The notes under the pieces are model-generated. The model made no database searches. It was not told where the DNA came from and saw only the letters and a program-made list of their open reading frames with translations. DNA of 47,567 bases from Candidatus Gastranaerophilales bacterium (GTDB lineage: Bacteria; Cyanobacteriota; Vampirovibrionia; Gastranaerophilales; Gastranaerophilaceae): contig CALUTD010000019.1 in the NCBI GenBank assembly GCA_944323625.1, positions 1 to 47,567 of the forward strand, read 5' to 3'. A program made the position numbers and the translations under genes. Shown here piece after piece: positions 4,076-47,166 of the stretch (the first letter of the stretch is position 1; each line of letters starts with the position of its first letter).

Positions 4076-4143
4076 TAATACTCCTTTATAAATTTGTAAA
4101 ATTGTTGAAATTAATTGAAATTTGTAATAAATTAAGTATAGAC

Positions 4144-6717
4144 ATGATAAGTAAAGAAATCAAGAACAGTAATAATTTGGAAGTTGATATTGAACTTGCT
4201 ACGCCAATGTTCAAGCAATTTTTGGAAATAAAAAGAAGTCACCCGGGGGTTGTCTTGCTATATAGAATGGGCGACTTCTATGAAGGCTTTTTTGAAGATG
4301 CAATTTTATTTGCGCGTGAACTCGGGCTTACCCTTACTCATAAAGACGGCGGTCCGCTTGGAAAAGTACCGATGGCGGGTATTCCGGTCAAATCTTTGGA
4401 TACTTTTATACCAAAACTTATTCATAATAATCATAAAGTTGCAATATGCGAACAGCTTGAAAATCCTAAAGAAGTTAAAGGGCTTGTTAAACGTGATATA
4501 GTAAAAACAATCACTGCAGGAACAATCACTGAAGTTAATCTTTTGGAACCTACAGGGAATAATTATCTTGCAGCTGTTATTTGTGTTAATAATATTTTTG
4601 GTTTGGCATATACGGATATTACGACAGGAGAGTTTCGCGTAACAAAAGGTTCTTTGAATGACATTTTGGCAGAACTTGCCCGAATAAAACCATCAGAAAT
4701 TTTGACACCTATAAAAATACAAAAAATTCAACCGTTTCAAATAGTTCCTGATGAAGAGATTGATTTACCCAATGAAATTACGGCATTGTATCCCTGTACT
4801 AAAATGCCTGCATCTTCTTTTAGTGCGGAAAATTCTGTTAATTCAATTAAACAGGTGTTTAAAATTTCATCTTTGGATTCTTTCGGATATGATGATTACA
4901 AACCCGGATTTATGGCTGCCGGTGCAATTATTGATTATATTAACGAAACACAAAAAGGGGTGTTTCCTAAATTTGATGTAATAAAACCATATTCGATATC
5001 CGAATTTGTATCAATAGATGCAAACACAAGAAGAAATTTGGAGCTTGTCGAAACATACAGAGATAAAACGACATACGGCAGTTTATTTTGGGCTATAGAT
5101 AGAGTAAGAACTCCAATGGGAGCAAGACTCTTAAAAAGCTGGATTACACAACCCGTTAAAAATACAAGTGAAATTATAAAAAGACAGGATTCTGTTGAAG
5201 AACTGATAAATAACTCACAGGGCAGATTAAATCTTGCAAGTATACTTGAAAGATTTTGTGATATTGAAAGACTTGCAATAAGAATTACAAACGGTTCTGT
5301 TAATCCGCGTGATTTTCTTGCTCTTAAAGAGTCATTATCGTTTCTGCCTAATTTAAAAGCAATTTTTAATTCTTTTAACTCAGAATATTTAAGCAATTTT
5401 AGTGATAATATATCAGTTTTGGGTGAATTTTCTTCTATTATTGCAAGAACAATAGAAGAAAATGCTACCAATAATATAAAAAACGGTAATATAATAAAAA
5501 ATGAAGTAAATGGTGAACTTGACTATTATAGGAATCTTATATCGGGCGGAGAAGAATGGATAAAAGATTTTGAATCAAGACAACGTGAAATTACCGGAAT
5601 AAAAAGCTTAAAAGTTAATTATAACAGAAATTTCGGGTTTTCAATAGAAATTTCAAAAACAAATACAAGTCAAGTACCGGCAGATTATGTCAGAAAACAA
5701 ACACTTACAAATGCCGAAAGATATATTACAGAAGAACTAAAAAAACATGAAAATGAAGTATTTTCTGCACAATATAAAATTTCAGAACTGGAGCAAAAAA
5801 TATATTCCGATTTAATAGAATATTCAAAATCATTTGTAGATGAAATAAAATCTGTTTCAAAATTTTTATCAAGAGCTGATGTTTTACTTTCTTTTGCAAC
5901 AATTGCGCTTGAGTCTGATTATGTAAGACCTGAAATTGACGAGTCTAATACATTATATATAAAAGACGGCCGCCACCCGGTTGTTGAAAAGATTCTACCT
6001 ATGGGGCAGTACGTTCCTAATGATTTAAGATTGATTGCCGATAAACAAAATTATGAAGATACCCAATTTATGATATTAACAGGGCCGAATATGGCCGGGA
6101 AATCTACATATATGCGTCAAAATGCTTTAATTGTATTAATGGCTCAAATAGGCTCTTTTGTTCCGGCTTCTTATGCAAGAATAGGTATAGTTGATAAAAT
6201 ATTTACCAGGGTCGGAGCCAGTGATGATTTATCGCTTGGGCAATCTACTTTTATGGTGGAAATGACTGAAACTGCTTATATCCTAAACAGTGCAACTGAA
6301 AAAAGTCTAATATTGCTTGATGAAATTGGAAGAGGAACTTCAACTTACGATGGTGTTGCAATAGCATGGTCGGTTGCCGAATATATTGCAACAAAAATCA
6401 AGGCAAGGACTATATTTGCAACTCACTACCATGAATTAAACGTTATGCCAAAATCAATTGACAGTATTAAAAATTACAGAATAACTCTTGCCGAAAAAGA
6501 TGGTGAAATCCAGTTTTTGAGAAAAGTAGTTGAAGGTTCGGCAAGTAAAAGCTATGGTATTCATGTTGCTAAAATGGCAGGGCTTCCTTCAAGCGTAATT
6601 ACAAAAGCTCAAGGCCTTATGAACAGAATGCAGAAGGATTATTCAAAAGATTTATCCGCTAAAAAGTCTAAAAACAGTATGTCTGATGTCCCGCAATTAA
6701 ACCTGTTTTGTGATTAA
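4144..6717 (+). CDS. mutS: DNA mismatch repair ATPase MutS
   Basis: Recognises mismatches and small loops and starts mismatch repair. The N-terminal domain carries the mismatch-wedging Phe-x-Glu in GDFYE. The clamp and lever regions follow, and the C-terminal ATPase has Walker A GPNMAGKST (about residue 647), Walker B LILLDEIGRGTST and the ATHYHEL switch. I take the ATG at 4144, which leaves 19 residues before the conserved TPM segment as in other MutS proteins. An in-frame TTG at 4102 would add 14 residues but lies against the divergent gene. rimO follows almost at once. No mutL is in the window. MutS matters here because mismatch repair limits slippage in mononucleotide runs such as the poly-G tracts described below. 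Confidence 0.96.
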   Translation: MISKEIKNSNNLEVDIELATPMFKQFLEIKRSHPGVVLLYRMGDFYEGFFEDAILFARELGLTLTHKDGGPLGKVPMAGIPVKSLDTFIPKLIHNNHKVAICEQLENPKEVKGLVKRDIVKTITAGTITEVNLLEPTGNNYLAAVICVNNIFGLAYTDITTGEFRVTKGSLNDILAELARIKPSEILTPIKIQKIQPFQIVPDEEIDLPNEITALYPCTKMPASSFSAENSVNSIKQVFKISSLDSFGYDDYKPGFMAAGAIIDYINETQKGVFPKFDVIKPYSISEFVSIDANTRRNLELVETYRDKTTYGSLFWAIDRVRTPMGARLLKSWITQPVKNTSEIIKRQDSVEELINNSQGRLNLASILERFCDIERLAIRITNGSVNPRDFLALKESLSFLPNLKAIFNSFNSEYLSNFSDNISVLGEFSSIIARTIEENATNNIKNGNIIKNEVNGELDYYRNLISGGEEWIKDFESRQREITGIKSLKVNYNRNFGFSIEISKTNTSQVPADYVRKQTLTNAERYITEELKKHENEVFSAQYKISELEQKIYSDLIEYSKSFVDEIKSVSKFLSRADVLLSFATIALESDYVRPEIDESNTLYIKDGRHPVVEKILPMGQYVPNDLRLIADKQNYEDTQFMILTGPNMAGKSTYMRQNALIVLMAQIGSFVPASYARIGIVDKIFTRVGASDDLSLGQSTFMVEMTETAYILNSATEKSLILLDEIGRGTSTYDGVAIAWSVAEYIATKIKARTIFATHYHELNVMPKSIDSIKNYRITLAEKDGEIQFLRKVVEGSASKSYGIHVAKMAGLPSSVITKAQGLMNRMQKDYSKDLSAKKSKNSMSDVPQLNLFCD

Positions 6718-6730
6718 TGGAATTGAAAAT

Positions 6731-8035
6731 ATGAAACAAATTGCATTAATAAATCACGGTTGTGCTAAAAATCTTGTAGATTCAGAGTTAATGCTAGGCA
6801 AGATTGCTAAAAGCGGATATAAAATTACATTAGATGAAACTAAAGCGGATATTGTTATTATTAATACCTGCTCTTTTATACATGATGCAGAAAAAGAATC
6901 GATTGCTTCCATATTCGATATGATTCGGGCCGGAAAGAAAATCATTATTACAGGCTGTTTGCCTCAAAAATATAAGAAAGAGCTTCAAGAGTTAATACCT
7001 GAAGCCGTTGCTTTTATAGGTACATCAGATATAGATAAAATTGTAGATGTTATTAAAAATATCGGAAAAAATAAGGATAAAATGTATGCAGTTTCTGAAA
7101 AACCCGAATATATTTATCCTGAGGATATTAAAAGGCAGCAAATAACAATGGGAGCAAGCTCTTACATTAAAATAGCCGAAGGCTGTGATTTTAACTGCGG
7201 ATATTGTGTTATCCCGAAACTTAGAGGTCCTTATAGGTCAAGAACAATTGAAAATATTGTTAAAGAAGCTAAAGAACTTGCGCAAAAAGGTGTTTCAGAA
7301 ATAGTTTTGATTGCGCAGGATACTTCAAGTTACGGAAAAGATATATATTCAAAACCGTCATTACATAAATTATTAGAAGAACTAAATAAAATTCAAGATT
7401 TAAACTGGATAAGAATTATGTATACTTATCCGTCTTTATTATCAGATGAATTATTGGAAACAATAAAAAGACTCGACAAGGTAGTAAAATACATTGATGT
7501 TCCGCTGCAGCATGTAAGCAGTAATATACTTGAGCAAATGAATCGCCCTGTAATGGATTATAAAAAACTTATAAAAAGAATCAGAAAAATTATACCTTCG
7601 GCTGCAATAAGGACTACTTTTATTGTCGGATACCCGGGAGAAACACAAGAAGATTTTCAAGAACTTTATGATTTTATTAACGAAATGAAGTTTGACAGAG
7701 CCGGAGTTTTTGAATATTCGCGCGAAAAAGATACAAAGGCGTATAAACTTAAGCCTCAAATCCTTTCAAAAGAAAAAAAACGAAGAAAGAAACTGTTAAT
7801 GGAACTGCAGCAGCGTATATCAAAAGAATTGAACAGAAAATTAATAGGTAAGAAAATTGATTGCATAGTTGAAACAGTAAACCAAGATGGAGTTATATGT
7901 GCAAGAACATATAAAGATGCTCCCGAAGTTGATGGCTTAATATATATTAAAACCTCAACTCCTGTCATGCCGGGTGATATAATAACCGCAACGATAACCG
8001 GCGCAAGTGAATATGATTTGGAAGGTGAATTTTAA
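6731..8035 (+). CDS. rimO: Ribosomal protein S12 methylthiotransferase RimO
   Basis: Radical-SAM enzyme that adds a methylthio group to an aspartate of ribosomal protein S12. Domains in order: an N-terminal MTTase domain with three cluster cysteines (in HGCAKN, NTCSF and GCLPQK), a radical-SAM core with C152, C156 and C159 in CDFNCGYC, and a C-terminal TRAM-type RNA-binding region. GCAKNLVDSE and LRGPYRSR favour RimO over the tRNA enzyme MiaB. The chosen ATG at 6731 starts just before the conserved QIALINHGC. A GTG at 6710 in the same frame overlaps the mutS stop and would add seven residues. It is probably co-transcribed with mutS. Confidence 0.94.
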   Translation: MKQIALINHGCAKNLVDSELMLGKIAKSGYKITLDETKADIVIINTCSFIHDAEKESIASIFDMIRAGKKIIITGCLPQKYKKELQELIPEAVAFIGTSDIDKIVDVIKNIGKNKDKMYAVSEKPEYIYPEDIKRQQITMGASSYIKIAEGCDFNCGYCVIPKLRGPYRSRTIENIVKEAKELAQKGVSEIVLIAQDTSSYGKDIYSKPSLHKLLEELNKIQDLNWIRIMYTYPSLLSDELLETIKRLDKVVKYIDVPLQHVSSNILEQMNRPVMDYKKLIKRIRKIIPSAAIRTTFIVGYPGETQEDFQELYDFINEMKFDRAGVFEYSREKDTKAYKLKPQILSKEKKRRKKLLMELQQRISKELNRKLIGKKIDCIVETVNQDGVICARTYKDAPEVDGLIYIKTSTPVMPGDIITATITGASEYDLEGEF

Positions 8036-8055: not shown

Positions 8056-8213
8056 CGGGAAAAAACGTAGGTTGGGTTTTTTACCCCCCCCCCAACAATA
8101 CTAGATAACTGACAGTCGGAACTTAATCTATTATCTAAAATTCAAAGCAGTCTTTTAATTGTCTGAAAAAACGTAAGTAGGTTGGGTTTTCTGAAGTGTA
8201 CCCCAACCTACTT
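8056..8213. repeat. Duplicated hairpin sequence with a ten-C run
   Basis: Two near-direct copies of AAAAAACGTA(AGTA)GGTTGGGTTTT lie at about 8060-8080 and 8167-8190. The second copy closes into a perfect 12-bp stem. The first copy closes only through GTTGGG (8071-8076) and CCCAAC, and its right arm contains a run of ten C (8084-8093). It lies in the 285-base gap between the convergent rimO and obg genes, where no gene is visible. Runs this long are rare in such AT-rich DNA. Confidence 0.7.
8175..8213 (-). terminator. Likely terminator downstream of obg
   Basis: AAGTAGGTTGGG (8175-8186) pairs perfectly with CCCAACCTACTT (8202-8213). Read on the minus strand the hairpin is followed by ACGTTTTTTCAG, a fair U-run, which fits a terminator for obg. 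On the plus strand the run after the stem is weaker, but it may also stop rimO transcripts. Confidence 0.6.
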
Positions 8214-25923: not shown

Positions 25924-26588
25924 TTGGATAAAAAAACTTTAACATTAACGGAAGTTTTAATAACTATTGTTGTAATTGGAATAATATCTGCAATAACCAT
26001 ACCTGCAGTAGTAAATATGACATATAAAAAAGAACTTGAAACTGCATTTAAAAAACAATTTTCAAGTTTAAAACAGGCCGTTTTATTAATTAAAAGTAAA
26101 GATTCCGTACTATTGGATTTTGAAAATTATAAAATGAATTTAAACCAAGACTGGCACAAGAATATAATGTTATTTATGACTGCGGTGTTATTAATAATAA
26201 TACGGGGTGTATAATTTCAGATGAAGACGGCATTTTCAGATACTATAAATCATATTCGGGAGGAAATTTAAGCAGAAGCTATTTTGATGATGGAGGTTTC
26301 ATATTAAATGACGGAACCACATTTTTTATAGAACAGGGTATTCAGGCTCAAAATAATATTGGCGGCTACATTGTATCAATAGATATAAACGGTTATTCCA
26401 AAAAGCCAAATAAAATGGGTTATGATTTATTTATGTTTCAAATAAAACCTGAAGGTGAAGTTCTTCCCATGGGTAGTAAAAACACACATTTTAGAAATTA
26501 TTGTTCAAAGAAATCAACATCGGAATATAGCGGATACAGCTGTGCTTATAATGCACTTACAGATAAAGATTATTTTTCTAAATTATAA
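25924..26588 (+). pseudogene. Prepilin-like gene broken by a frameshift
   Basis: Starts with TTG after an AGAGG ribosome site. The N-terminus is MDKKTLTLTEVLITIVVIGIISAITIP, a type IV prepilin-like segment in which the usual Phe+1 is Leu. The frame is lost near 26150-26165: from there the reading continues one frame over (EYNVIYDCGV...) without a stop to TAA at 26588. The second part contains the family loop DINGYSKKPNKMGYDLFMF. One inserted or deleted base separates the halves, and no homopolymer marks the spot, so this looks like ordinary decay or a sequencing error, not a slippage switch. Unlike its relatives it lacks the GW..F..DYPW ending. Confidence 0.8.
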
Positions 26589-26952: not shown

Positions 26953-27672
26953 TTAAATTTTCCAAGGATAATCTTCTTTAAATTCCCATCCGTCAATCCT
27001 TAAAAGTTTTGTACAAGCCATAAACCCGCGATTATCTTCATCTGCACACATTTTTCTAATTTCAGCTCTATCTTCAACAAAATCATTAGTTTCACTATCT
27101 AAATCCGGAAGAGCATCAAAATAATTAACATGCAATTCATTAAAAAATGTTCCGCCGCAAATGCCAAATCTAAAAATGTCATATTCTGTTTTATTAGGTT
27201 TTTTATTTCCGTTTATGTCATAATATACGGCTGTGCAAGCAGCTTCTGCACATTCACTCTGACACTCTGCCGCAGCTTTTGTTTTTATGCATTCTTTATA
27301 ACACGCAGAACCTGTATTATATCTATACAATCCTTTAGGTAAAATAATAATCGAAGTGCCATCAAGTAAATATACTTTGCATTGATCACCTGCTTCAATG
27401 ATATAATAATCATATTTTATGTATGCACTTAAATATTTTAAAAAAAATTCTTTCCCCGTAAGACTCAAATGATCCCATTCAGTTGAGGAAATACCATTAT
27501 TTACAGAGGACTCTCTAATTGCATTATTCATGACAGAATAAAATTTTTTTAAACGGGCAGTATACTTCTGCCTTTTATACGAAACAATAAAATTAAGAAT
27601 AGTTAATGCAGCAATTATACCTATTACTATTATTGCTATTAATATTTCTGATAACGTAAACGATTTTCTCAT
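26953..27672 (-). CDS. Type IV prepilin-like protein (intact)
   Basis: A 239-residue pilin-like protein. The leader is only MRKS, then FTLSEILIAIIVIGIIAALTI with Glu at +5 of the expected mature protein, as needed for methylation and assembly. The globular part has many cysteines (CYKECIKTKAAAECQSECAEAAC), the loop DINGNKKPNKTEYDIFRF, and the ending GWEFKEDYPWKI shared with the poly-G prepilins. It is exported and processed by prepilin peptidase. Unlike those relatives it has no poly-G run, so it should be made constantly. Whether it belongs to a pilus or a pseudopilus is unknown. Confidence 0.85.
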   Translation of the reverse strand: MRKSFTLSEILIAIIVIGIIAALTILNFIVSYKRQKYTARLKKFYSVMNNAIRESSVNNGISSTEWDHLSLTGKEFFLKYLSAYIKYDYYIIEAGDQCKVYLLDGTSIIILPKGLYRYNTGSACYKECIKTKAAAECQSECAEAACTAVYYDINGNKKPNKTEYDIFRFGICGGTFFNELHVNYFDALPDLDSETNDFVEDRAEIRKMCADEDNRGFMACTKLLRIDGWEFKEDYPWKI

Positions 27673-37745: not shown

Positions 37746-37774
37746 TTGTAAAAATATGGAATATATGCTAAAAT
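37746..37774 (+). promoter_or_regulatory. Promoter of prepilin gene A
   Basis: TTGTAA (37746-37751), 17 bases, TAAAAT (37769-37774). A strong GAGGAGA ribosome site (37784-37790) and ATG (37798) follow. Having a good promoter and ribosome site in front of an out-of-frame start supports the view that the gene is switchable, not dead. Confidence 0.7.
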
Positions 37775-37797
37775 AAGTTAAACGAGGAGATAAGATT

Positions 37798-38546
37798 ATG
37801 AATAAATCATTAAACCGCTACGGGGGGGGGGTAAAAAGAAGGTAGTTTTTGATAATTATTTTTCTTTTAAAAAACCGTCATTTACTCTTTCAGAAGTTCT
37901 TATTACTCTTGTAATTATAGGAATCATTGCCTCAATAACAGTGCCTGTAATTATGGCGAATCACAAAAAAACTGAAACTGCCGCAAAAATAAAAAAATTT
38001 TATTCAACAATGTCTAATGCCGTTAAACTTGCTGAAATTCAAGAAGGAATACCGGCTTACGATTGGGACTTAACCCCCGTCAATAACCAAGTTTATTATT
38101 TAAACCTAATTACCAATAATATAAACTACACAAAACGCGAAATTTCTGATGACTTAGGTCTTTGTGTTGATGTTTTCTATTTAAGTGACGGGAGTATAAT
38201 GTGTACAGACGGATTGCCAGGCTCTATATTGACTTCTTCAAGTGGTAATGTTCGCGGTTATGAAATCATTTATGATGTAAACGGCGACAAAGGACCCAAT
38301 GAATATGGAAGAGATTGGTTCCACTTTGCTTTAATGGCAAATAAAGAATTTATAAAAGAGCATAATGCTAATGTTTTTGATACTTATCCATGCTATGACG
38401 TAGATATTAATTTTCATAGTTCTAGAGAAGATATTAAAAATGCCTGTGCAAATTCAAGAATTGGGAATACTGAAGATAAATGTTGTGCAAATCTTCTCAA
38501 AATAGACGGATGGAAGTTTAAAGATGACTATCCATTTAAACTATAG
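37798..38546 (+). CDS. Poly-G phase-variable prepilin A (OFF as assembled)
   Basis: From ATG 37798 the frame reads MNKSLNRYGGG and hits TAG at 37843-37845. The prepilin body is in another frame and has no start codon before its hydrophobic segment. With 8 or 11 G instead of 10 the two parts join into a protein of about 249 residues. It would have a leader ending FKKPS, then FTLSEVLITLVIIGIIASITVP with Glu+5, the loop DVNGDKGPNEYGRDWFHF, and the ending GWKFKDDYPFKL. The poly-glycine lies in the leader removed by prepilin peptidase, so the run would act only as a switch. The body is free of stops, so it has not decayed. Confidence 0.8.
37822..37831 (+). repeat. Poly-G run (10) in prepilin A
   Basis: Ten G, 24 bases after the start of the ATG. 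Flank CGCTAC matches that of prepilin C. A run of n = 8 or 11 restores the frame. Confidence 0.9.
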
Positions 38547-38604
38547 TACAGCGAAAGTTCTTTATAATTATTATATGGCTAGTATTGCTTGTTTAGTCGA
38601 TTAA

Positions 38605-38841
38605 ACGAAATTATTAATCTCAATAACAAGCAACCAAAAAATAGCATTAGCTAGTTTTTTGTTTAATCTTGGACCAAATATACTAAGTGGTTCAGAATTA
38701 CTTAAAAAACTTAATGCCGGAGATTACAAAGGAGCTGCCGATACATTTGATAGATATATAACACAAAAAGGTAAGGTATTAAAAGGACTAGTTAATAGAA
38801 GAAAAAGAGAAAAAGAATTGTTTTTAACTCCTGATGACTAA
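38605..38841 (+). pseudogene. Remnant of a phage-type GH24 lysozyme (endolysin)
   Basis: The frame from 38605 reads ...SNQKIALASFLFNLGPN, then LLKKLNAGDYKGAADTFDRY and GKVLKGLVNRRKREKELFL. This is the C-terminal half of T4/P22-type lysozymes (usually about 150-165 residues). The N-terminal half with the catalytic Glu-Asp-Thr is absent: a stop (TAA at 38602-38604) precedes it and nothing recognisable lies upstream. It is therefore inactive, probably a prophage scar beside prepilin A. No other phage genes are nearby. Confidence 0.8.
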
Positions 38842-39302
38842 TTGTCATCAGGAATATCAATATAACAACCTAATTCACCATTGGTATAAGTATCGGTTGG
38901 ATCACAACCTTCTCGCGGTTCAATATGTTTTGCAGCTATAATTATTTTAATTTCTAGTGTACTATATGCAGTATCATCATTTAAGGGTTCACCATTATCC
39001 TTATAAAGAACTTTACCTTTATATTCTACATTCCCATCTTTATTAATATTAATTTTATCAAAACGATTTGGATCATCATCGTATAAGTAAAAATCAATAG
39101 GTCTTATATTAATAAGATTAACCGTTTTATTTAAAGTATTATTTATTTTTTCAAGTTGATTAATCTTTTCTTTTAAATCAATTTTTTCAATTTCCGAATT
39201 TAAAAACTTTTTATCATCAATAAATTTTTTAACAAAGAAACCTGATGCAAATGATGCGAGCAATAAAAATATGAAAATTAATATAATAATAAGTTTTTTC
39301 AT
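38838..39302 (-). CDS. Membrane-anchored coiled-coil protein of unknown function
   Basis: A 154-residue protein from ATG 39302 (MKKLIIILIFIFLLLASFASGFFV). One N-terminal membrane helix is followed by a short coiled coil (about 30-60, EIEKIDLKEKINQLEKINNTLNKTV) and a small C-terminal domain with two or more cysteines (GCDPTDTYTNGELGCYIDIP). The frame could extend to 39344 but that adds an unlikely hydrophobic start. It converges on the endolysin remnant, overlapping it by four bases. Family unknown; exposed on the outer face of the inner membrane if the topology is as usual. Confidence 0.55.
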   Translation of the reverse strand: MKKLIIILIFIFLLLASFASGFFVKKFIDDKKFLNSEIEKIDLKEKINQLEKINNTLNKTVNLINIRPIDFYLYDDDPNRFDKININKDGNVEYKGKVLYKDNGEPLNDDTAYSTLEIKIIIAAKHIEPREGCDPTDTYTNGELGCYIDIPDDN

Positions 39303-39358
39303 AGCAATAATTATAATAATTTGTAAATTAAAATTCAATAGCAATAAGGTTAATAAAA

Positions 39359-39565
39359 GTGTCCGAACGAAAAGTTACTCACACCCTTCGGGCTGGGGCA
39401 CTTTGTGCCACGGCGCCCTACACAAAAACGCTTCTTGGATTTCCCTCTCGGCTCAATCTTGTATCTCCGCTTTCAGAAACCTTACGGTTTCTTGCGCTTC
39501 GACCGATTTTCGCCTCTTCGGGCTCGCACGCTTCCGCGTGACTCCGCCCTACGGGAAATCCGCTA
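39359..39565 (-). repeat. Structured repeat cluster R5
   Basis: One complete unit (39434-39563) with outer arms GGATTTCCC (39437-39445) and GGGAAATCC (39553-39561), and an inner AAACC-TTAC-GGTTT hairpin. Before it lies a truncated unit (39359-39433) with the GGGGCAC-TTT-GTGCC hairpin, which also occurs in R1 (94-110). On the coding strand the cluster begins with the stop codon TAG of the gene at 39563. Confidence 0.85.
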
Positions 39566-39988
39566 TATCATTGTTTTTCTGATGTGGTTTTTACTGTTTT
39601 CTATATCTTTTATTCGTCTTTCCACTGTCTTTATTTGTTTTGCCAAGACTTTTCTTTGTTCTTTTATCAACTGATATTGTGTATCTACTTCCTGATATTT
39701 TGCCTTATAGTCTAATAATTCATTTCTTATGTTTACTTGTGCACTGTCAAGCTCAAACAGAGCATTATTAAAATTCTCGGATTGACCCGATACCGCGTCT
39801 TGCGCTAATCTGGTACTCGCCTGTATATTATTGTTTATTTCATTATTTGACGGCAATTTTACCGAGCCTATTTTATTCACCTGTTCATCAACTTTATATT
39901 CCGTTGGATCATAAACCATGCCGGCAGCATAAACACAATTACATGCGCTAAATACCAATAAATTTAGTATAATAAATAGTTTCTTCAT
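39563..39988 (-). CDS. Exported coiled-coil protein of unknown function
   Basis: A 141-residue protein with a signal peptide (about 1-21, ending VYA; the cysteines at 16 and 18 could instead suggest a lipoprotein, but no proper lipobox is seen). The mature part is helical, with a coiled coil over the last 60 residues (LDYKAKYQEVDTQYQLIKEQRKVLAKQIKTVERRI). The GMVYDPTEYKVDEQV start faintly recalls VirB5/TrbJ-like proteins, but this is too weak for a call. Its TAG stop is inside repeat cluster R5. Confidence 0.65.
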   Translation of the reverse strand: MKKLFIILNLLVFSACNCVYAAGMVYDPTEYKVDEQVNKIGSVKLPSNNEINNNIQASTRLAQDAVSGQSENFNNALFELDSAQVNIRNELLDYKAKYQEVDTQYQLIKEQRKVLAKQIKTVERRIKDIENSKNHIRKTMI

Positions 39989-40090
39989 TCCTTAATCTCC
40001 ATACTCATATTGTTATTAAATCATTTTTATTCTTTTTTTGAATCATATATTTAATTGATAATTTCTTTTAAGAGTTTTAAAATTAATAAT

Positions 40091-43000
40091 ATGCAGGAAT
40101 TTATAAAAAACATTAAATTCGAATTTACAGAAAAAATTACGGCTCTTGTAAACAAACGCTGCTCATTTGCCGTAAGCGGAATTACAAATTGTTCCAAGCT
40201 ATTAATTTTAGCAAAGCTTTTAGCTTCAAATAAACAAAAATTGATTTTTATTGTTGAAACAGAACAAACTGCACTTAAATTCCAAAATGATTTAAATAAA
40301 CTTCTAAAAAAAGAGTCTGTTATTTTTCCTTATCAGGACGGTTCAATTTATGATACAAACTCTAAAAATCTTTATAAATATGCAAAACAGGTTCAAATCT
40401 TAAACCTTCAAAACAATCTTGACATTATTATTGTTCCCCAAAAAGCTTTATTTGAAAATTTTGCTTCTTTTGAATTTTTCAATAAAAACAATATCACAAT
40501 CAGAATTAATGAAGATATTGACGTTGAAAATTTTGCCAAAAAGCTTATTGAAATGGGCTATAAAAGAAAAACTCTTGTTGCCGATATAGGTGAATTTAGT
40601 ATAAGAGGCGGCATTATAGATGTATTCCCCTTGAATGACAACCCTTTTAGACTCGAATTATGGGGTGATACAGTTACAGATATAAGGATTTTTGATAACT
40701 CAACACAAAAAAGTATATCAAAAGTAAAAGAAGCTGTTATACAGCCAATATACAAATTCATTTTAAATGACAATTCTTACAAAAAAATTGATAATCTTAT
40801 TGATAAGGATAATGAAAACCAACTTGAATTAATTGAAAATCTTAAATCCAAAACTTATTTTGAAGGTATTGAATATTATGAATCCTGTTTTAATCCCGAT
40901 TTAAAAACCTTTATACAACTTGTTTCTAAAGATTTCATTATTATTTTTGATGATTATACTCAATTTAAATCACGTTATGAACAAACTCATGAAAACCTTA
41001 TAAAACAATACGAAGAAAACATAAATACCAAATTAACTCTACCTCTAGAAAATAAAAATAATTTAGACCTTAAAGATTTTATTACTTCTGTAAGTGATTT
41101 TGAGAAAATATATTTTGATAACTTTATTTCTGATGATTTTAATATCAATATTGAGCTTACAACCGAATTAATTCCTTATTTTGCATCAGGAATTGAAGAT
41201 ATTGCAAAATTTATCTCGGATAAATTAAAACAAAATTATAAAATTATAACTGCAACCGATTATAAAAACAGAGTTGAAGAAATATTTAAAGAGTATGAAA
41301 TTCCTTACAGTTATAACTCAACTGCACAAGGCAGTGTATATATAACGGATAATATAGCTTTAGCAGGCAGTATAATAGAAGATTGCAAACTTATTATAAT
41401 TACCGATAAGGAATTTTTCAATAAACGTTCAAAAGATATAACCGGTATAAGGTATAATTATCGGCGTGAAAATTTGGATTTTATAGAAACACTTAACGAT
41501 ATAAAGGAAGGTGACTATATTGTTCATATGGTTCACGGTATAGGTATTTTTAAAGGTTTGTCAAAGCAAATTATAGATAATGAAGAAAAAGATTATTTAA
41601 CCCTTGAATATGCGCGCGGAGATAAACTTCATATACCTGCGGAACAAATAAATATGCTTTCAAGGTACAGAGGCTCAGGCAGTGTATTACCGCCATTATC
41701 AAAGATGGGCGGTAATGATTGGACAAACACAAAAAACAAAGTTAAAAAAGCTGTTGAAGATGTTGCTCAAGACCTTATTAACCTTTATGCATTAAGAAAA
41801 TTATCTAAAGGGTTTGCATTTGAACCCGATACCGTTTGGCAATATGAAATGGAAGATGCTTTCGGTTACACGGAAACTCCCGACCAAATGAAAGCTATTG
41901 CCCAAACAAAAGAGGATATGGAATCTGATAAACCTATGGATAGGCTAATTTGTGGAGATGTAGGTTTTGGAAAAACAGAAGTCGCAATAAGAGCAATATT
42001 TAAATCCGTAATGTCATCAAAGCAAGCCGCTATTGTTGTACCTACCACAATTTTGGCATTGCAGCATTATCAAACCATATCTGAAAGATTTAAACCCTTT
42101 CCTGTTAAAGTTGAACTTCTTTCAAGGTTTAAAAGTAATAAAGAACAAAAAGAGGTTATCAGGAAATTAATACTAGGTGAAATTGATGTTGTAGTGGGCA
42201 CTCATAGACTTCTTCAGGATGATATTCAATTTAAAGATTTAGGTTTGCTCGTTATAGATGAAGAACATAAATTTGGTGTTGCGCATAAAGAAAAACTCAA
42301 ACGTCTTAAGAAAAATATTGATATTCTTACAATGTCAGCTACACCCATTCCGAGAACACTTTACATGTCTTTATCAGGCATAAAAGACATGAGTATTATA
42401 AACACTCCGCCTACGAACAGACTCCCGATAAAAACGTTTGTGTGCGAGTTTAAAGAATCCGTTATTAAAAATGCAATTAACTATGAAATTGAAAGAGACG
42501 GACAGGTATTCTACCTTTATAACAGAGTAGAAAGTATATATGAATTTGCACAACAATTAAAAGACTTGATGCCAAATATCAGGTTGGCAGTCGCTCATGG
42601 ACAAATGGATAAAAATTTACTCGAAAAAATAATGACAGACTTCCTCAATAAAGAATATGATGTCCTTTTGTGCACAACTATTATTGAATCAGGCCTTGAT
42701 ATACCGAATGCTAATACAATAATAATACATGATTCAAATAAATTCGGACTCGCCCAGCTCTATCAAATAAGAGGACGAGTCGGAAGAACAGATAGACAGG
42801 CTTTTTGCTATTGTTTGTATAAAAAACCTCAAAATCTTACCCAAGATGCAATTAAAAGACTTCAATATATTAAAGAATTTACAACTTTAGGGAGCGGGTA
42901 TCAAATTGCAATGAGGGATATAGAAATAAGAGGAGTCGGAAATGTTTTAGGCACTAAGCAGCACGGACAAATGGTAAATGTCGGTTTCGATACATACTGT

Positions 43001-43549
43001 CAGCTGCTCGAAAACGCCATACAAGAAATTCAAGAAGGCAAAGCCGTTGAATATAAACCTGCAATAGTAGATATAAACGTTACTGCATACATTCCCGACG
43101 ACTGGGCAGGCTCTAAAGAACAAAAAATGATTGAATATAAAAGACTTGCCGATGTTAAATCCGAAACAGAATTGAATGCCATTCAATCCGAATGGAAAGA
43201 CAGATTCTCAAAAATGTCGGAGCCTGTAGAAAATCTGATTAAACTTGTAAATTTAAGACTTCTTGCAACAAATGCAGGTATAACATTAATTCGGGAAGTT
43301 GATTCCTCAATTCGTATTTATACAAATCTTTCAAAAGGCGAATGGAACATAATATGCGCAAAAGGAGATAAAAATATTACGAAATATATAAAATATACAA
43401 TAGCCCCAAACAGTTGCCGGGACGGTAATAGTATATTAATATTGAATAAAGCATATTTAAATTTTGAAGAAGTATTTAACATTCTTTCAAATTTATTCTA
43501 TTATATTATTAAAATAGGTAACGATTATAATATAATTAATAAAGGTTAG
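40091..43549 (+). CDS. mfd: Transcription-repair coupling factor Mfd
   Basis: DNA translocase that removes stalled RNA polymerase and recruits UvrA. About 1152 residues from ATG 40091; a TTG at 40055 would add 12. Regions in order: UvrB-like N-terminus, RNA-polymerase-interacting domain (GDYIVHMVHGIGIFKGL), helicase core with Walker A GDVGFGKTEV (about 622) and DEEHKFGV, TRG motif near GLDIPNANTII, and the C-terminal TRCF domain. A promoter is not obvious in the short gap from the divergent gene. Confidence 0.96.
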   Translation: MQEFIKNIKFEFTEKITALVNKRCSFAVSGITNCSKLLILAKLLASNKQKLIFIVETEQTALKFQNDLNKLLKKESVIFPYQDGSIYDTNSKNLYKYAKQVQILNLQNNLDIIIVPQKALFENFASFEFFNKNNITIRINEDIDVENFAKKLIEMGYKRKTLVADIGEFSIRGGIIDVFPLNDNPFRLELWGDTVTDIRIFDNSTQKSISKVKEAVIQPIYKFILNDNSYKKIDNLIDKDNENQLELIENLKSKTYFEGIEYYESCFNPDLKTFIQLVSKDFIIIFDDYTQFKSRYEQTHENLIKQYEENINTKLTLPLENKNNLDLKDFITSVSDFEKIYFDNFISDDFNINIELTTELIPYFASGIEDIAKFISDKLKQNYKIITATDYKNRVEEIFKEYEIPYSYNSTAQGSVYITDNIALAGSIIEDCKLIIITDKEFFNKRSKDITGIRYNYRRENLDFIETLNDIKEGDYIVHMVHGIGIFKGLSKQIIDNEEKDYLTLEYARGDKLHIPAEQINMLSRYRGSGSVLPPLSKMGGNDWTNTKNKVKKAVEDVAQDLINLYALRKLSKGFAFEPDTVWQYEMEDAFGYTETPDQMKAIAQTKEDMESDKPMDRLICGDVGFGKTEVAIRAIFKSVMSSKQAAIVVPTTILALQHYQTISERFKPFPVKVELLSRFKSNKEQKEVIRKLILGEIDVVVGTHRLLQDDIQFKDLGLLVIDEEHKFGVAHKEKLKRLKKNIDILTMSATPIPRTLYMSLSGIKDMSIINTPPTNRLPIKTFVCEFKESVIKNAINYEIERDGQVFYLYNRVESIYEFAQQLKDLMPNIRLAVAHGQMDKNLLEKIMTDFLNKEYDVLLCTTIIESGLDIPNANTIIIHDSNKFGLAQLYQIRGRVGRTDRQAFCYCLYKKPQNLTQDAIKRLQYIKEFTTLGSGYQIAMRDIEIRGVGNVLGTKQHGQMVNVGFDTYCQLLENAIQEIQEGKAVEYKPAIVDINVTAYIPDDWAGSKEQKMIEYKRLADVKSETELNAIQSEWKDRFSKMSEPVENLIKLVNLRLLATNAGITLIREVDSSIRIYTNLSKGEWNIICAKGDKNITKYIKYTIAPNSCRDGNSILILNKAYLNFEEVFNILSNLFYYIIKIGNDYNIINKG

Positions 43550-43563
43550 TAAAGGAGAAAAAA

Positions 43564-44709
43564 ATGAATAAGTTAAAAGTAGCCTTGTTTTCGTTTTTAG
43601 CTATCTTTGTTTTTACCGGATGTTCAATCCATAAAAATGCCGAAGATATCATAAAAATTAATGATACGGTTATTACAAAAACAGAATTCAATAAAGCTTA
43701 TGATACGGTAGCTTCAAACAATATGTTTACTCAAATGGGAATAGATTTAAAATCTGACCCGAACAATGTCTTTGCTCTTATGATGAAAGAAAAAGTTGTT
43801 TCTGAACTTGTTGTTAAAGCTTTGTTAAACGATGAAATGGATAAAAGAAAAATTTCCGCAACAAAAGAAGAAATTGAAAACGCAGAAAAAGATATTGTTT
43901 CAAAATTCGGCTCTAAAGAACAGTTTAACCAAATTTTGAAAACTAACGGTGTAACTTACGAACAATTTAAAAAAGATTTAGAAGACGAAATTAAACTCAA
44001 AAAGTTTGTCGATTCAATCGCAATGGTTTCTGTCGGTGAAAAAGAAGCTAAAAAATACTATGATGAAAATATTGACAAATTTAAATATCCTAAAAGAGTC
44101 AGAGCTTCTCATATCTTGATTGCTGCAAATCCTGAACAAATAAAAGCTAAATTAAAAGAACAAAATAAAGAAATAACAGATGAAGATCTTGAATCAAAAA
44201 CAAATGAACAAATGGAATTGGCAAAAAAGACAGCTCAATCACTCCAGGCAAAAGTAAAAGCAGCTCCGTCTACCTTTGCTAAAGTTGCAAAAGAAAATTC
44301 TCAAGATGCAGCAACTGCAATAAGAGGCGGTGATTTAGGCTTCTTTGCAAAAGATGAAATGGTTGAAGCATTCGCTAATAAAGCTTTTTCTATGAAACCT
44401 AATACTATATCGGAAGTTATCCAAACTCCTTACGGTTATCATATCATCCTTGTTACTGACAGATCTGAAGCAGGACAGCTATCTTTCGAAGAAAGTAAAA
44501 AAGATATTATAAGCTACCTTGAAAGTCAGGATAAAGTTGATATCTTAAAAAATAAAATTGAAGCTCTAAGAAAAGAAGCTAAAATTGAATATTTGGATGA
44601 AAACTATAATCCTGAAAATATTCAAAAACAAATAAAAGAAGCTTCATCTGATAATCCTGAACTGCAAAAGGCAATTAGCCCCGAAACTCCGGCAGTTGAA
44701 AATAAATAA
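43564..44709 (+). CDS. PpiC-type peptidyl-prolyl isomerase lipoprotein (SurA/PrsA-like)
   Basis: Folding helper for exported proteins. 381 residues: a lipoprotein signal with FVFTGCS (Cys at 20), a SurA_N-like helical domain (about 30-165), one parvulin domain (about 178-305; RASHILI, GGDLGFFAKDEMVEAF and TPYGYHIILV), and a charged tail. A single parvulin domain plus lipid anchor makes it PrsA-like. It lies 14 bases after mfd with an AAAGGAGAAA ribosome site, so it is likely co-transcribed, and it ends in a clear terminator. Confidence 0.9.
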   Translation: MNKLKVALFSFLAIFVFTGCSIHKNAEDIIKINDTVITKTEFNKAYDTVASNNMFTQMGIDLKSDPNNVFALMMKEKVVSELVVKALLNDEMDKRKISATKEEIENAEKDIVSKFGSKEQFNQILKTNGVTYEQFKKDLEDEIKLKKFVDSIAMVSVGEKEAKKYYDENIDKFKYPKRVRASHILIAANPEQIKAKLKEQNKEITDEDLESKTNEQMELAKKTAQSLQAKVKAAPSTFAKVAKENSQDAATAIRGGDLGFFAKDEMVEAFANKAFSMKPNTISEVIQTPYGYHIILVTDRSEAGQLSFEESKKDIISYLESQDKVDILKNKIEALRKEAKIEYLDENYNPENIQKQIKEASSDNPELQKAISPETPAVENK

Positions 44710-44721
44710 TAAATTAATATT

Positions 44722-44751
44722 AAACGAGGCAAATTACTGCCTCGTTTTTTC
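44722..44751 (+). terminator. Rho-independent terminator after the PpiC gene
   Basis: AAACGAGGCA pairs perfectly with TGCCTCGTTT around a six-base loop, followed by more T. Confidence 0.92.
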
Positions 44752-44766
44752 TAAGGAAATTTTAAA

Positions 44767-45231
44767 ATGCTAATAAATAAAAATGAATTACAAGACTTAT
44801 TAAAAAAACTAAGAAATGAACATAAAACAATTGTTACAACAAACGGTTGTTTTGATATTCTTCATGTCGGACATGTAAGATATTTACAAAAAGCAAAAAG
44901 CTTCGGAGATATTCTTATTGTGGCCCTAAACTCTGATAAATCAGTTAAAAGTATAAAAGGCGAATCAAGACCAATAAACAATGAAAATGACCGCGCCGAA
45001 GTTTTAAGTGCACTAAGAAGTGTTGATTACGTAGTATTATTTGATGAAGATTCACCTATAAATCTTCTTTTGGAAATAAAACCCGATGTTCACACAAAAG
45101 GTGCAGATTATACAATTGAAACTCTGCCGGAAGCAAAAGGGATTATGGCTTCAGGTGGCAGAATCGAATTTATCTCTTTTGTTGAAGGTAAATCCACTAC
45201 GTCAATTATAAATAAATTGAAAAATAATTAA
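44767..45231 (+). CDS. rfaE2: D-glycero-beta-D-manno-heptose 1-phosphate adenylyltransferase
   Basis: Makes ADP-heptose precursor for the lipopolysaccharide core. 154 residues, the stand-alone adenylyltransferase half of HldE. Nucleotidyltransferase motifs: TNGCFDILHVGHVRYLQ (with HxGH) and a late GKSTTSII signature. KGESRPIN and HTKGADY segments also match. The kinase half is not in the window. Its presence supports a Gram-negative-type envelope. Confidence 0.92.
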   Translation: MLINKNELQDLLKKLRNEHKTIVTTNGCFDILHVGHVRYLQKAKSFGDILIVALNSDKSVKSIKGESRPINNENDRAEVLSALRSVDYVVLFDEDSPINLLLEIKPDVHTKGADYTIETLPEAKGIMASGGRIEFISFVEGKSTTSIINKLKNN

Positions 45232-45317
45232 TATCCTAAAATAATTTTTTACATTTATTTTCGACTAAAGAGATCCGGCTATTTAATGTTTGATATAATC
45301 AAACTTATTTTTAAGAC

Positions 45318-45346
45318 TTGATACAAATAAGAAATATTATTATAAT
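45318..45346 (+). promoter_or_regulatory. Promoter of prepilin gene B
   Basis: TTGATA (45318-45323), exactly 17 bases, TATAAT (45341-45346); the best sigma-70 match of the three poly-G genes. AGGAGA (45365-45370) and ATG (45377) follow. Confidence 0.8.
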
Positions 45347-45376
45347 ATAATAAATAAACGATATAGGAGATTAAAA

Positions 45377-46095
45377 ATGACAATCAGACACAAATTCACC
45401 ACGGGGGGGGGGTATTTAAAAATAAAAAATACTTTACTTTAGCAGAAATATTGAATACTCTTGTTGTTATAGGTATTATTGCAGCAATTACTGTGCCAGT
45501 AATTATGACAAAGCACAAAAAAACTGAATATTCGACAAAATTAAAAAAATTTTATTCTACTATGTCCAATGCAATCAAATTGGCAGAAATAGAGCAAGGT
45601 TCCCCTTCTTACGAATGGGATTATTCAGAAGAAACCGATGTATTTAAAAATTATCTTTTAAAATACTTAAATTGTGAACAAAAAAATATAAACGTTTGTG
45701 CATTGGGAAACGATGAATATTTTACAGATGATTCGAACTTTGGAGATTGTTACACACAAAAAGCCTGCTTTTTTAATGACGGAGTATTTTTTACATACCA
45801 TACTTATGAAAATAAAAATATGGAATTTTCAGTTATATTGACAGGTTTAAATAAAAGAAGTACATACGGTAAAGATATATATGCTTTTGATATAGGCCGT
45901 TCAATTAATATTTATAATCTTGATAATCCTGACGAAATGTATAATATGATATGTGAAGGATTACAACCAAGAGGAGTTGATCCTTGTATAAAAGATAATA
46001 ACCCGCTTGAAATATGCAAAGGCGAACAATCCTATTGTACCCCGGTAATATTTAATAATGGTTTTGATTTCAATAATTATCCATACAGAATTTAA
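45377..46095 (+). CDS. Poly-G phase-variable prepilin B (OFF as assembled)
   Basis: From ATG 45377 the frame reads MTIRHKFTTGGGYLKIKNTLL and stops at TAG 45440-45442. In the other frame the gene reads GVFKNKKYFTLAEILNTLVVIGIIAAITVP and on to 46095 without a stop. With 8 or 11 G the parts join into a protein of about 239 residues, with a leader of about 19 residues, Phe+1 and Glu+5. The body has paired cysteines and ends GFDFNNYPYRI. The leader differs from A and C (MTIRHKF against MNKS), so the shared feature is the run itself. Confidence 0.8.
45403..45412 (+). repeat. Poly-G run (10) in prepilin B
   Basis: Ten G, 26 bases after the start of the ATG, flanked by CACCAC and TATTT. A run of n = 8 or 11 restores the frame. 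Confidence 0.9.
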
Positions 46096-46106
46096 AAAAT
46101 ATAGTC

Positions 46107-46135
46107 TTGTTAAAATATAAGTTATATTATAATAT
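46107..46135 (+). promoter_or_regulatory. Promoter of prepilin gene C
   Basis: TTGTTA (46107-46112) and TAATAT (46130-46135), 17 bases apart; TATAAT also occurs at 46128. AAGGAGA (46144-46150) and ATG (46158) follow. Confidence 0.6.
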
Positions 46136-46157
46136 AAATAAAAAAGGAGATATTATT

Positions 46158-46881
46158 ATGAATAAATCAATTATCCGCTACGGGGGGGGGTGGTAGAACA
46201 GGACTAAATTTTTATAACTTTTCTATCTTCAAAAAAACTTCATTCACACTTTCAGAAGTATTAATTACACTTGTTATCATAGGCATTATTGCAGCAATAA
46301 CCGTACCTTTAATTTATACAAGCTATCAAAAAGAAGCAACAGTTCAAAAACTTAAAAAGGGATACTCTGCTGTATGCGAAATTGTTAGATTGTCAGAGCT
46401 TGACAATGGACCACTATCAACGTGGGAGTTTGATACAGCATATAACTCTGATGGCGTAAACTCAGAATTTTTTAAAAAATATTTTGAACCTTATATTATA
46501 GGTACTAAAAAATATGGAACAGCATATAATCAAGAGTATAGAATACATAATATTGACGGTACAAACGCTCTTGGTATATCATACTGGTATGTGTTAGCAG
46601 ATGGAAGCGGTCTGACTATGTTTTCAAACGGAACAAATTACTGCTGGGTTTTAATAGATACAAATGCATCAAATCCTCCAAACAGACTTGGGAAAGATAT
46701 GTTTATGCTCGATATTAAAATGAAAAAACAAGTGAGATTATGGGGTAGTACCATTAAAGATTTTAAAAATTCTTCTGGATACCCCTGTAACAAAGGAAGC
46801 GGAGCACAATATGCCGGCGGGTATTGCGGAGCCTGGATTCAAGCAGAAGGCTGGAAAATTCCCGACGGATATCCCTGGTAA
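46158..46881 (+). CDS. Poly-G phase-variable prepilin C (OFF as assembled)
   Basis: From ATG 46158 the frame reads MNKSIIRYGGGW and stops at TAG 46194-46196. The other frame reads GRTGLNFYNFSIFKKTSFTLSEVLITLVIIGIIAAITVP and runs to 46881 with no start codon before the hydrophobic segment. One G fewer (8) or two more (11) joins them into about 240 residues. It has a DTNASNPPNRLGKDMFMLDI loop and ends GWKIPDGYPW, a shortened form of the family ending. Start region and promoter resemble those of prepilin A. Confidence 0.8.
46182..46190 (+). repeat. Poly-G run (9) in prepilin C
   Basis: Nine G, 24 bases after the start of the ATG, flanked by CGCTAC as in prepilin A. A run of n = 8 or 11 restores the frame. 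Confidence 0.9.
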
Positions 46882-47041: not shown

Positions 47042-47051
47042 CAAACTTGAA

Positions 47052-47166
47052 TCCGGCAACTAGTTATTTTCCCGGGCGGTCTTCCGCCGAGTATTTTCAC
47101 CGCAAGCAGTCTTTACGACCGTGTTCGGAATGGTTACGGGTGGTTTCCTGCCGCTTGGTCACCGGA
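47052..47166 (-). rRNA. rrf: 5S ribosomal RNA
   Basis: About 115 nucleotides on the minus strand. The conserved loop CCATTCCGAACACGG is present, the ends (TCCGGTGACC and GTTGCCGGA) pair, and the GGAAACCACCCG and CTCGGCGGAAGACCGCCCGGG regions fit the other arms. The 23S gene expected upstream is not within the remaining 400 bases; repeats fill that space instead. Confidence 0.92.

Follow-up and report, generated by a model that had tools for sequence, protein, structure and literature searches.

The window analyzed here, a 47,567-nucleotide (nt) stretch of contig CALUTD010000019.1 from a Candidatus Gastranaerophilales bacterium (assembly GCA_944323625.1), carries three genes, starting at positions 37798, 45377, and 46158, in which a run of 9–10 G separates the start codon from a prepilin body lying in another reading frame. 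These genes are very probably members of a type IV prepilin family that spans the genome and is phase-varied by DNA slippage at poly-G/C tracts. In the main form of the proposed mechanism, the tract is located about 24 nt after the start codon, within the leader that prepilin peptidase would remove, and one G gained or lost by replication slippage would bring the body into or out of frame while leaving the mature pilin unchanged. As tracts tend to settle at 9–10 G and the ON state corresponds to 8 or 11, OFF is the default for most genes, and a given cell would express few pilins, in varying combinations. Furthermore, recombination at the conserved segment encoding the N-terminus has exchanged 5' switch modules among the bodies.

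Anatomy and frame state of the window genes

An earlier note on this DNA had described a shared anatomy of promoter, ribosome site, ATG, G9–10 run, and stop-free prepilin body, which was confirmed for all three genes (Table 1). Hexamers resembling TTGNNA and TATAAT are read about 25–60 nt upstream of each ATG, an AGGAG Shine-Dalgarno sequence lies 7–8 nt 5' of it, and the ATG-to-run distance is 24, 26, and 24 nt, respectively. The prepilin motifs of bodies 1, 2, and 3 are FTLSEVLITLVIIGI, FTLAEILNTLVVIGI, and FTLSEVLITLVIIGI, and the stretch reaching from the preceding stop to the motif contains no in-frame ATG, GTG, or TTG, so that the bodies indeed lack an alternative start. Since the run-to-motif distance is 49, 20, and 52 nt, the body is in frame (ON) at 8 or 11 G in each gene and the assembled lengths of 10, 10, and 9 are all OFF, in agreement with the frame arithmetic proposed previously. 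The suggestion that switching would not alter the mature pilin likewise fits, because the tract is located 5' of the predicted cleavage site. The argument that three genes would not share one residue class by independent decay is weak when taken alone, as the downstream spacing can be inherited. Across the genomes, 35 distinct architectures (combinations of species, strand, and spacing) were counted, and ON equals 8/11 in 20 of them (p = 0.003 against an expectation of 1/3, the architectures not being fully independent).

The bodies encode pilin-like proteins, with processing and assembly being predicted. Their N-terminus follows the pattern [F]TLxExLxxLxxIGI with Glu5 and a hydrophobic helix, and T2, L3, E5, L7, and G14 are invariant in 56 sequences. 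PF07963 and TIGR02532 score above cut-off for the same two of the three window genes, while the body at 45433 falls below it in both. The AlphaFold model of body 1, with a predicted local distance difference test (pLDDT) score of 86, has Thermus thermophilus PilA5 (Z 5.9) and the Pseudomonas aeruginosa PAK pilin (Z 4.6) as best structural neighbors, at weak to middling scores. PilB/PilT-type ATPases are present in the genome.

Table 1. Features of the three tract-bearing prepilin genes (positions in the window).
Feature	Position	Strand	Support
Promoter-like TTGTAA-17-TAAAAT, pilin gene 1	37746..37774	+	Sequence reading
Ribosome site AGGAG and ATG, pilin gene 1	37785..37800	+	
G10 tract, pilin gene 1; OFF (ON = 8/11)	37822..37831	+	
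Mature prepilin body 1, 221 codons and stop, out of frame with ATG at G10	37881..38546	+	N_methyl 26.4 bits (genome search); AlphaFold pLDDT 86
Promoter-like TTGATA-17-TATAAT, pilin gene 2	45318..45346	+	Sequence reading
Ribosome site AGGAG and ATG, pilin gene 2	45365..45379	+	
G10 tract, pilin gene 2; OFF (ON = 8/11)	45403..45412	+	
Mature prepilin body 2, 220 codons and stop	45433..46095	+	N_methyl 14.6 bits, below cut-off; GspG-like N-terminus
Promoter-like TTGTTA-15-TATAAT, pilin gene 3	46107..46133	+	Sequence reading
Ribosome site AGGAG and ATG, pilin gene 3	46145..46160	+	
G9 tract, pilin gene 3; OFF (ON = 8/11)	46182..46190	+	
Mature prepilin body 3, 212 codons and stop, DUF6613-like	46243..46881	+	N_methyl 25.3 bits

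Two further prepilin-like genes of the window lack a tract, at 26953–27672 (− strand) and 25924–26214 (+ strand), the latter being short and possibly a fragment. An intergenic C10 run at 8084–8093 lies 49 nt 3' of the open reading frame (ORF) 6710–8035, with no pilin nearby; this ORF is probably mutL, judged by its position after the MutS gene (4102–6717). Loss of mismatch repair was rejected as MutS is present. A 5S ribosomal RNA (47051–47166, − strand) adjoins the pilin pair near the contig end.

Putative switch modules across the genome and its congeners

The genome of the window, termed G000, comprises 1.99 Mb in 37 contigs at 32% guanine plus cytosine and was compared with its congeners, foremost G008 and G019. 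It contains 121 G/C runs of 8 or more, far above the roughly 1–2 expected by chance from a G frequency of 0.16 (rough arithmetic). The prepilin census was based on 117 matches to PF07963 (N_methyl), whose regions were fetched and scanned for the motif, with de-duplicated tract counts. Of the resulting 112 motif-bearing prepilins, about 62 show a fused tract, defined as one within 90 nt of the prepilin motif (58 poly-G and 4 poly-C), 23 are preceded by a leader-ORF tract, and about 27 have a plain start. Thus, the genome-wide search suggested earlier for further genes of the form ATG–poly-G–prepilin raises the number of switch-bearing prepilin genes from 3 to about 85, or about three quarters of about 110. 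The single design from which that search started stands as the main form, whereas certain tracts consist of C or sit in a leader ORF apart from the pilin gene. Almost all tract-bearing copies come with their own promoter, Shine-Dalgarno sequence, and ATG. Moreover, about 200 stop-free codons are found in nearly all prepilin copies, very few bodies are truncated, and closely related OFF-OFF pairs exhibit a median ratio of nonsynonymous to synonymous substitution rates (dN/dS) of 0.26 (n = 21). The OFF bodies are under purifying selection.

In the 23 leader-ORF loci, the tract is located in a short separate ORF with its own ribosome site, one of which has lost its ATG. Two frames of these ORFs end 3–29 nt past the run and the third, which is the same frame that is ON in fused genes, runs for 40–127 nt. 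Where a hairpin-T-run terminator was found, it lies at about +48 to +83, and the ON frame reaches up to or into it. Six leader-ORF units in G008 display a different terminator and the same logic, with OFF frames ending at +22 at most and ON frames at +77 to +128. These units may act by attenuation: in the ON frame, the ribosome would proceed up to or into the intrinsic terminator and allow read-through to the next pilin, while in the other two frames it would stop at once.

The fused poly-G tracts of G000 measure 9 in 34/59 and 10 in 22/59 cases (about 58% and 37%), which looks like the ordinary drift of mutable tracts; in Campylobacter, 53% of the tracts identified with PhasomeIt are of length 9 and 26% of length 10 (PMC6321876). 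Among fused tracts that have a good start codon, tract length minus ON length (modulo 3) is +1, +2, and 0 in 35, 18, and 6 cases in G000, in 27, 1, and 0 in G008, and in 6, 2, and 4 in G019, so that only 6 of the 59 G000 tracts are ON in the assembly. Since ON is 8/11 for most genes, drift to 9–10 leaves most of them OFF, and the shared OFF state of the three window genes needs no special cause. Near-identical paralogs differ in tract length, with 9/10 on contig C30, 8/9/9 on C22, and G11 OFF versus G10 ON in the G019 pair C194/C255. In addition, a G000 copy with an interrupted run (GGGGTGGGG, C1:158716) is in the ON frame. A dependence of G000 tract length on the ON frame beyond chance was weak (Fisher p = 0.06; permutation p = 0.14), and part of the apparent link is due to T-to-G extension of the run. 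Features of contingency genes found here are a 5' coding homopolymer of at least 8 whose length change alters the frame, variation of that length among paralogs with conserved flanks, and a body kept functional while OFF.

Sequence comparison shows the 5' switch modules to be shuffled among pilin bodies. In a quickly built phylogeny of 105 mature pilins, whose deep branches are weak, the 5' module class requires 42 changes compared to a mean of 43.4 for shuffled labels, which corresponds to no signal, and the well-supported branches by themselves imply a minimum of 11 changes for the fused, 10 for the plain, and 7 for the leader-ORF class. The pairings C12:56840/C17:115 and C19:46243/C22:5001/C6:59255 share 71–80% of the pilin and have unrelated 5' regions, with the junction of the swapped regions at the first mature codon. 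The tracts are also embedded in a common motif, GCYAC-G(8–11)-TA, which surrounds pilin tracts of three species in more than one reading frame and with either poly-G or poly-C on the coding strand. On the G strand, the run is both preceded by AC and followed by TA in 76–100% of the pilin tracts in G000 and G008, compared to 4–22% of other tracts in G000, G008, and congeners, with G019 poly-G being intermediate (42%).

Prepilins detected at E 0.01 number 108 in G000, 63 in G008, and 54 in G019, as opposed to 3–15 in most genomes of the genus, and pilin tracts are abundant in these three genomes. Runs of 8 or more G are widespread in the genus, with between 5 and 79 in each of the 21 genomes counted. 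At the inspected congener loci, non-pilin runs reside in other coding genes, where mid-gene poly-G tracts are in frame in 9/13 cases, or in promoter-like sites just 5' of TATAAT. The latter include a promoter family with a G8–11 run 9 nt 5' of TATAAT ([G]taaaagtggtataat) at L216:8725, L216:12039, and L216:14912 and in the congener loci L269, L270, L279, L293, L305, and L307, a family that probably acts as a phase switch at the level of transcription in these relatives. Within G000, three poly-G runs are found within 4 kb (C4:4850, 6691, and 8729; locus L190) among reading frames that resemble aminotransferases and acetyltransferases by eye; this is probably a surface sugar locus, a typical contingency target.

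The nearest named relatives are metagenome-assembled genomes of Candidatus Gastranaerophilales, with surA-like protein identity of up to 84%; most are labeled Lapin, taken here to denote rabbit gut. A comparison of the same loci in related genomes, also proposed in the earlier note, came to nothing: the mfd-surA-rfaE block is kept in the named congeners, synteny stops at the rfaE stop codon, where the window pilin pair starts (45231/45377), and in the search for orthologous pilin loci with other tract lengths no pilin was found 3' of rfaE in the relatives' stretches.

Weighing slippage against other explanations

Several observations weigh against slippage-driven phase variation in its simple form. 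The evidence consists of assembled lengths from one genome per species, and switching within a population is a prediction. MutS is present in G000, so slippage may be slow, and the near-invariant length of the G008 pilin tracts (exactly 9 in nearly all, compared to 9–11 for other G008 tracts) is narrow for a hypermutable tract. Among the leader ORFs of G000, the ON frame stops just short of the hairpin in 4/22. Furthermore, the pilin genes downstream do not lack promoter-like sequence of their own: hexamers between terminator and pilin ATG reach a score of 10 or more in 18/23 loci versus 11% of shuffles (consensus match only). The leader-ORF tract would therefore modulate rather than switch, with read-through adding to basal expression. 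Slippage alone also does not explain the flanking motif common to both tract orientations, nor does protein coding, given that the flanks are kept in both orientations and different reading frames. The 3' T of the motif fits the GnT hotspot reported to lengthen runs of G (PMC12344412), and several G10 copies look as though a T-to-G change had extended a G9 copy. As a speculative alternative, GCYAC-G(8–11)-TA might be recognized by a dedicated factor (a mutator, recombinase, regulator, or RNA-RNA pairing partner) controlling the roughly 85 shuffled pilin modules.

Poly-G phase variation, as put forward in the earlier note, nevertheless remains the best reading, with Campylobacter-like lengths, near-identical copies that differ, and purifying selection on OFF bodies; the interrupted run in the ON frame and the mostly in-frame poly-G tracts in other congener genes lend further support. 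The last two points also count against a scheme free of DNA switching, in which ribosomal +1 frameshifting or RNA polymerase slippage would yield some pilin from a 9-G (9-C) template. Such a scheme would suit the predominance of excess +1 (35/59 in G000, 27/28 in G008, and 6/12 in G019), the almost invariable length of 9 in G008 in both orientations, and the physical proneness to slippage of runs of 9 or more, but it is improbable considering that, of the 59 G000 tracts, 18 have an excess of +2 and 6 are in frame, their bodies being just as intact, that G019 is mixed with 4/12 in frame, and that no common stop codon or stimulator marks the shift site, an immediate stop being seen in genes with 24 nt between ATG and run and none in the 26-nt or poly-C genes. 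It is also rather unlikely that the OFF genes mainly form a silent archive whose bodies, like pilS, would be expressed once recombination has placed them behind a 5' module that is ON or plain, with the tract being secondary. While the unclustered module classes with at least 11 forced changes for the fused class and the junction at conserved N-terminal codons are in line with this idea, nearly every copy, unlike pilS, has kept a promoter, ribosome site, and start codon of its own, and closely related bodies differ by a dS of 0.2–1, so exchange is not obviously rapid. Errors in assembled run lengths, with the genes really in frame, are very unlikely: the assembly is a draft of 37 contigs, probably from a metagenome, and homopolymers can be miscalled, but Illumina assemblies are reliable for such G tracts (PMC6321876), and the error would have to be systematic for pilins, while other congener poly-G genes are mostly in frame. 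Least credible are decaying pseudogenes caught in one frameshift class; the assembly does show most copies out of frame, yet stop-free bodies nearly everywhere, the scarcity of truncated copies, and the kept start signals speak against it, and the dN/dS of about 0.26 among OFF pairs contradicts decay.

Known systems and significance

The tracts resemble the poly-G loci of Campylobacter, Helicobacter, and Neisseria (lgt, pgl, pilC, and flagellar glycan genes), where 8–12 G/C near the gene start mediate frame switching and where the 9/10 length peak is shared with G000 (PMC6321876, PMC5953494). Unlike in these loci, dozens of pilins would themselves be switched here and are ON at rare lengths, and the 121 tracts outnumber the 5–81 phase-variable genes per strain reported in Campylobacter (PMC6321876). 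The leader-ORF class resembles pil1/pil3 of Streptococcus gallolyticus, which have a repeat in a leader ORF; there, the OFF frame ends about 40 nt short of an intrinsic terminator and the ON frame within or beyond it, a geometry experimentally proven for pil1 (PMC3894217). However, the repeat there is GCAGA rather than a single-base G tract and the genes encode sortase pili rather than type IV pilins, while the units described here occur in more than 20 copies per genome and the downstream gene has an additional promoter-like sequence.

Neisseria offers parallels both in homopolymer-based pilus phase variation (pilC) and in a large pilin set with conserved N-terminus, variable body, and recombination (pilE/pilS), although pilC encodes a pilus-associated protein and not a pilin. 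The pilS copies of Neisseria are silent and devoid of their own expression signals. One expression locus with such silent copies is not what was found here: nearly all tract-bearing copies carry a Shine-Dalgarno sequence and an ATG, and nearly every copy has its own switch module. Elusimicrobium minutum, another organism with a small gut-associated genome, likewise contains many dispersed pilin genes; we know of no homopolymer switches in that family. A literature search found no paper on phase variation in the Gastranaerophilales lineage. Slippage phase variation is thus a mechanism known in kind, whereas the target set, the scale, the multiple switch designs, and the module shuffling are new as far as found.

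Three switch designs (fused poly-G, fused poly-C, and a putative leader-ORF attenuator) operating on interchangeable bodies would coexist in one genome of an uncultured, non-photosynthetic gut lineage related to cyanobacteria. Individual cells are probably able to vary the set of surface fibers that they display, which may contribute to adhesion or to evasion of immunity or phages. If switching is confirmed, this family would be among the largest phase-variable surface-protein repertoires of any bacterium, and antigen-style pilus variation would be run by commensals and not only by pathogens.

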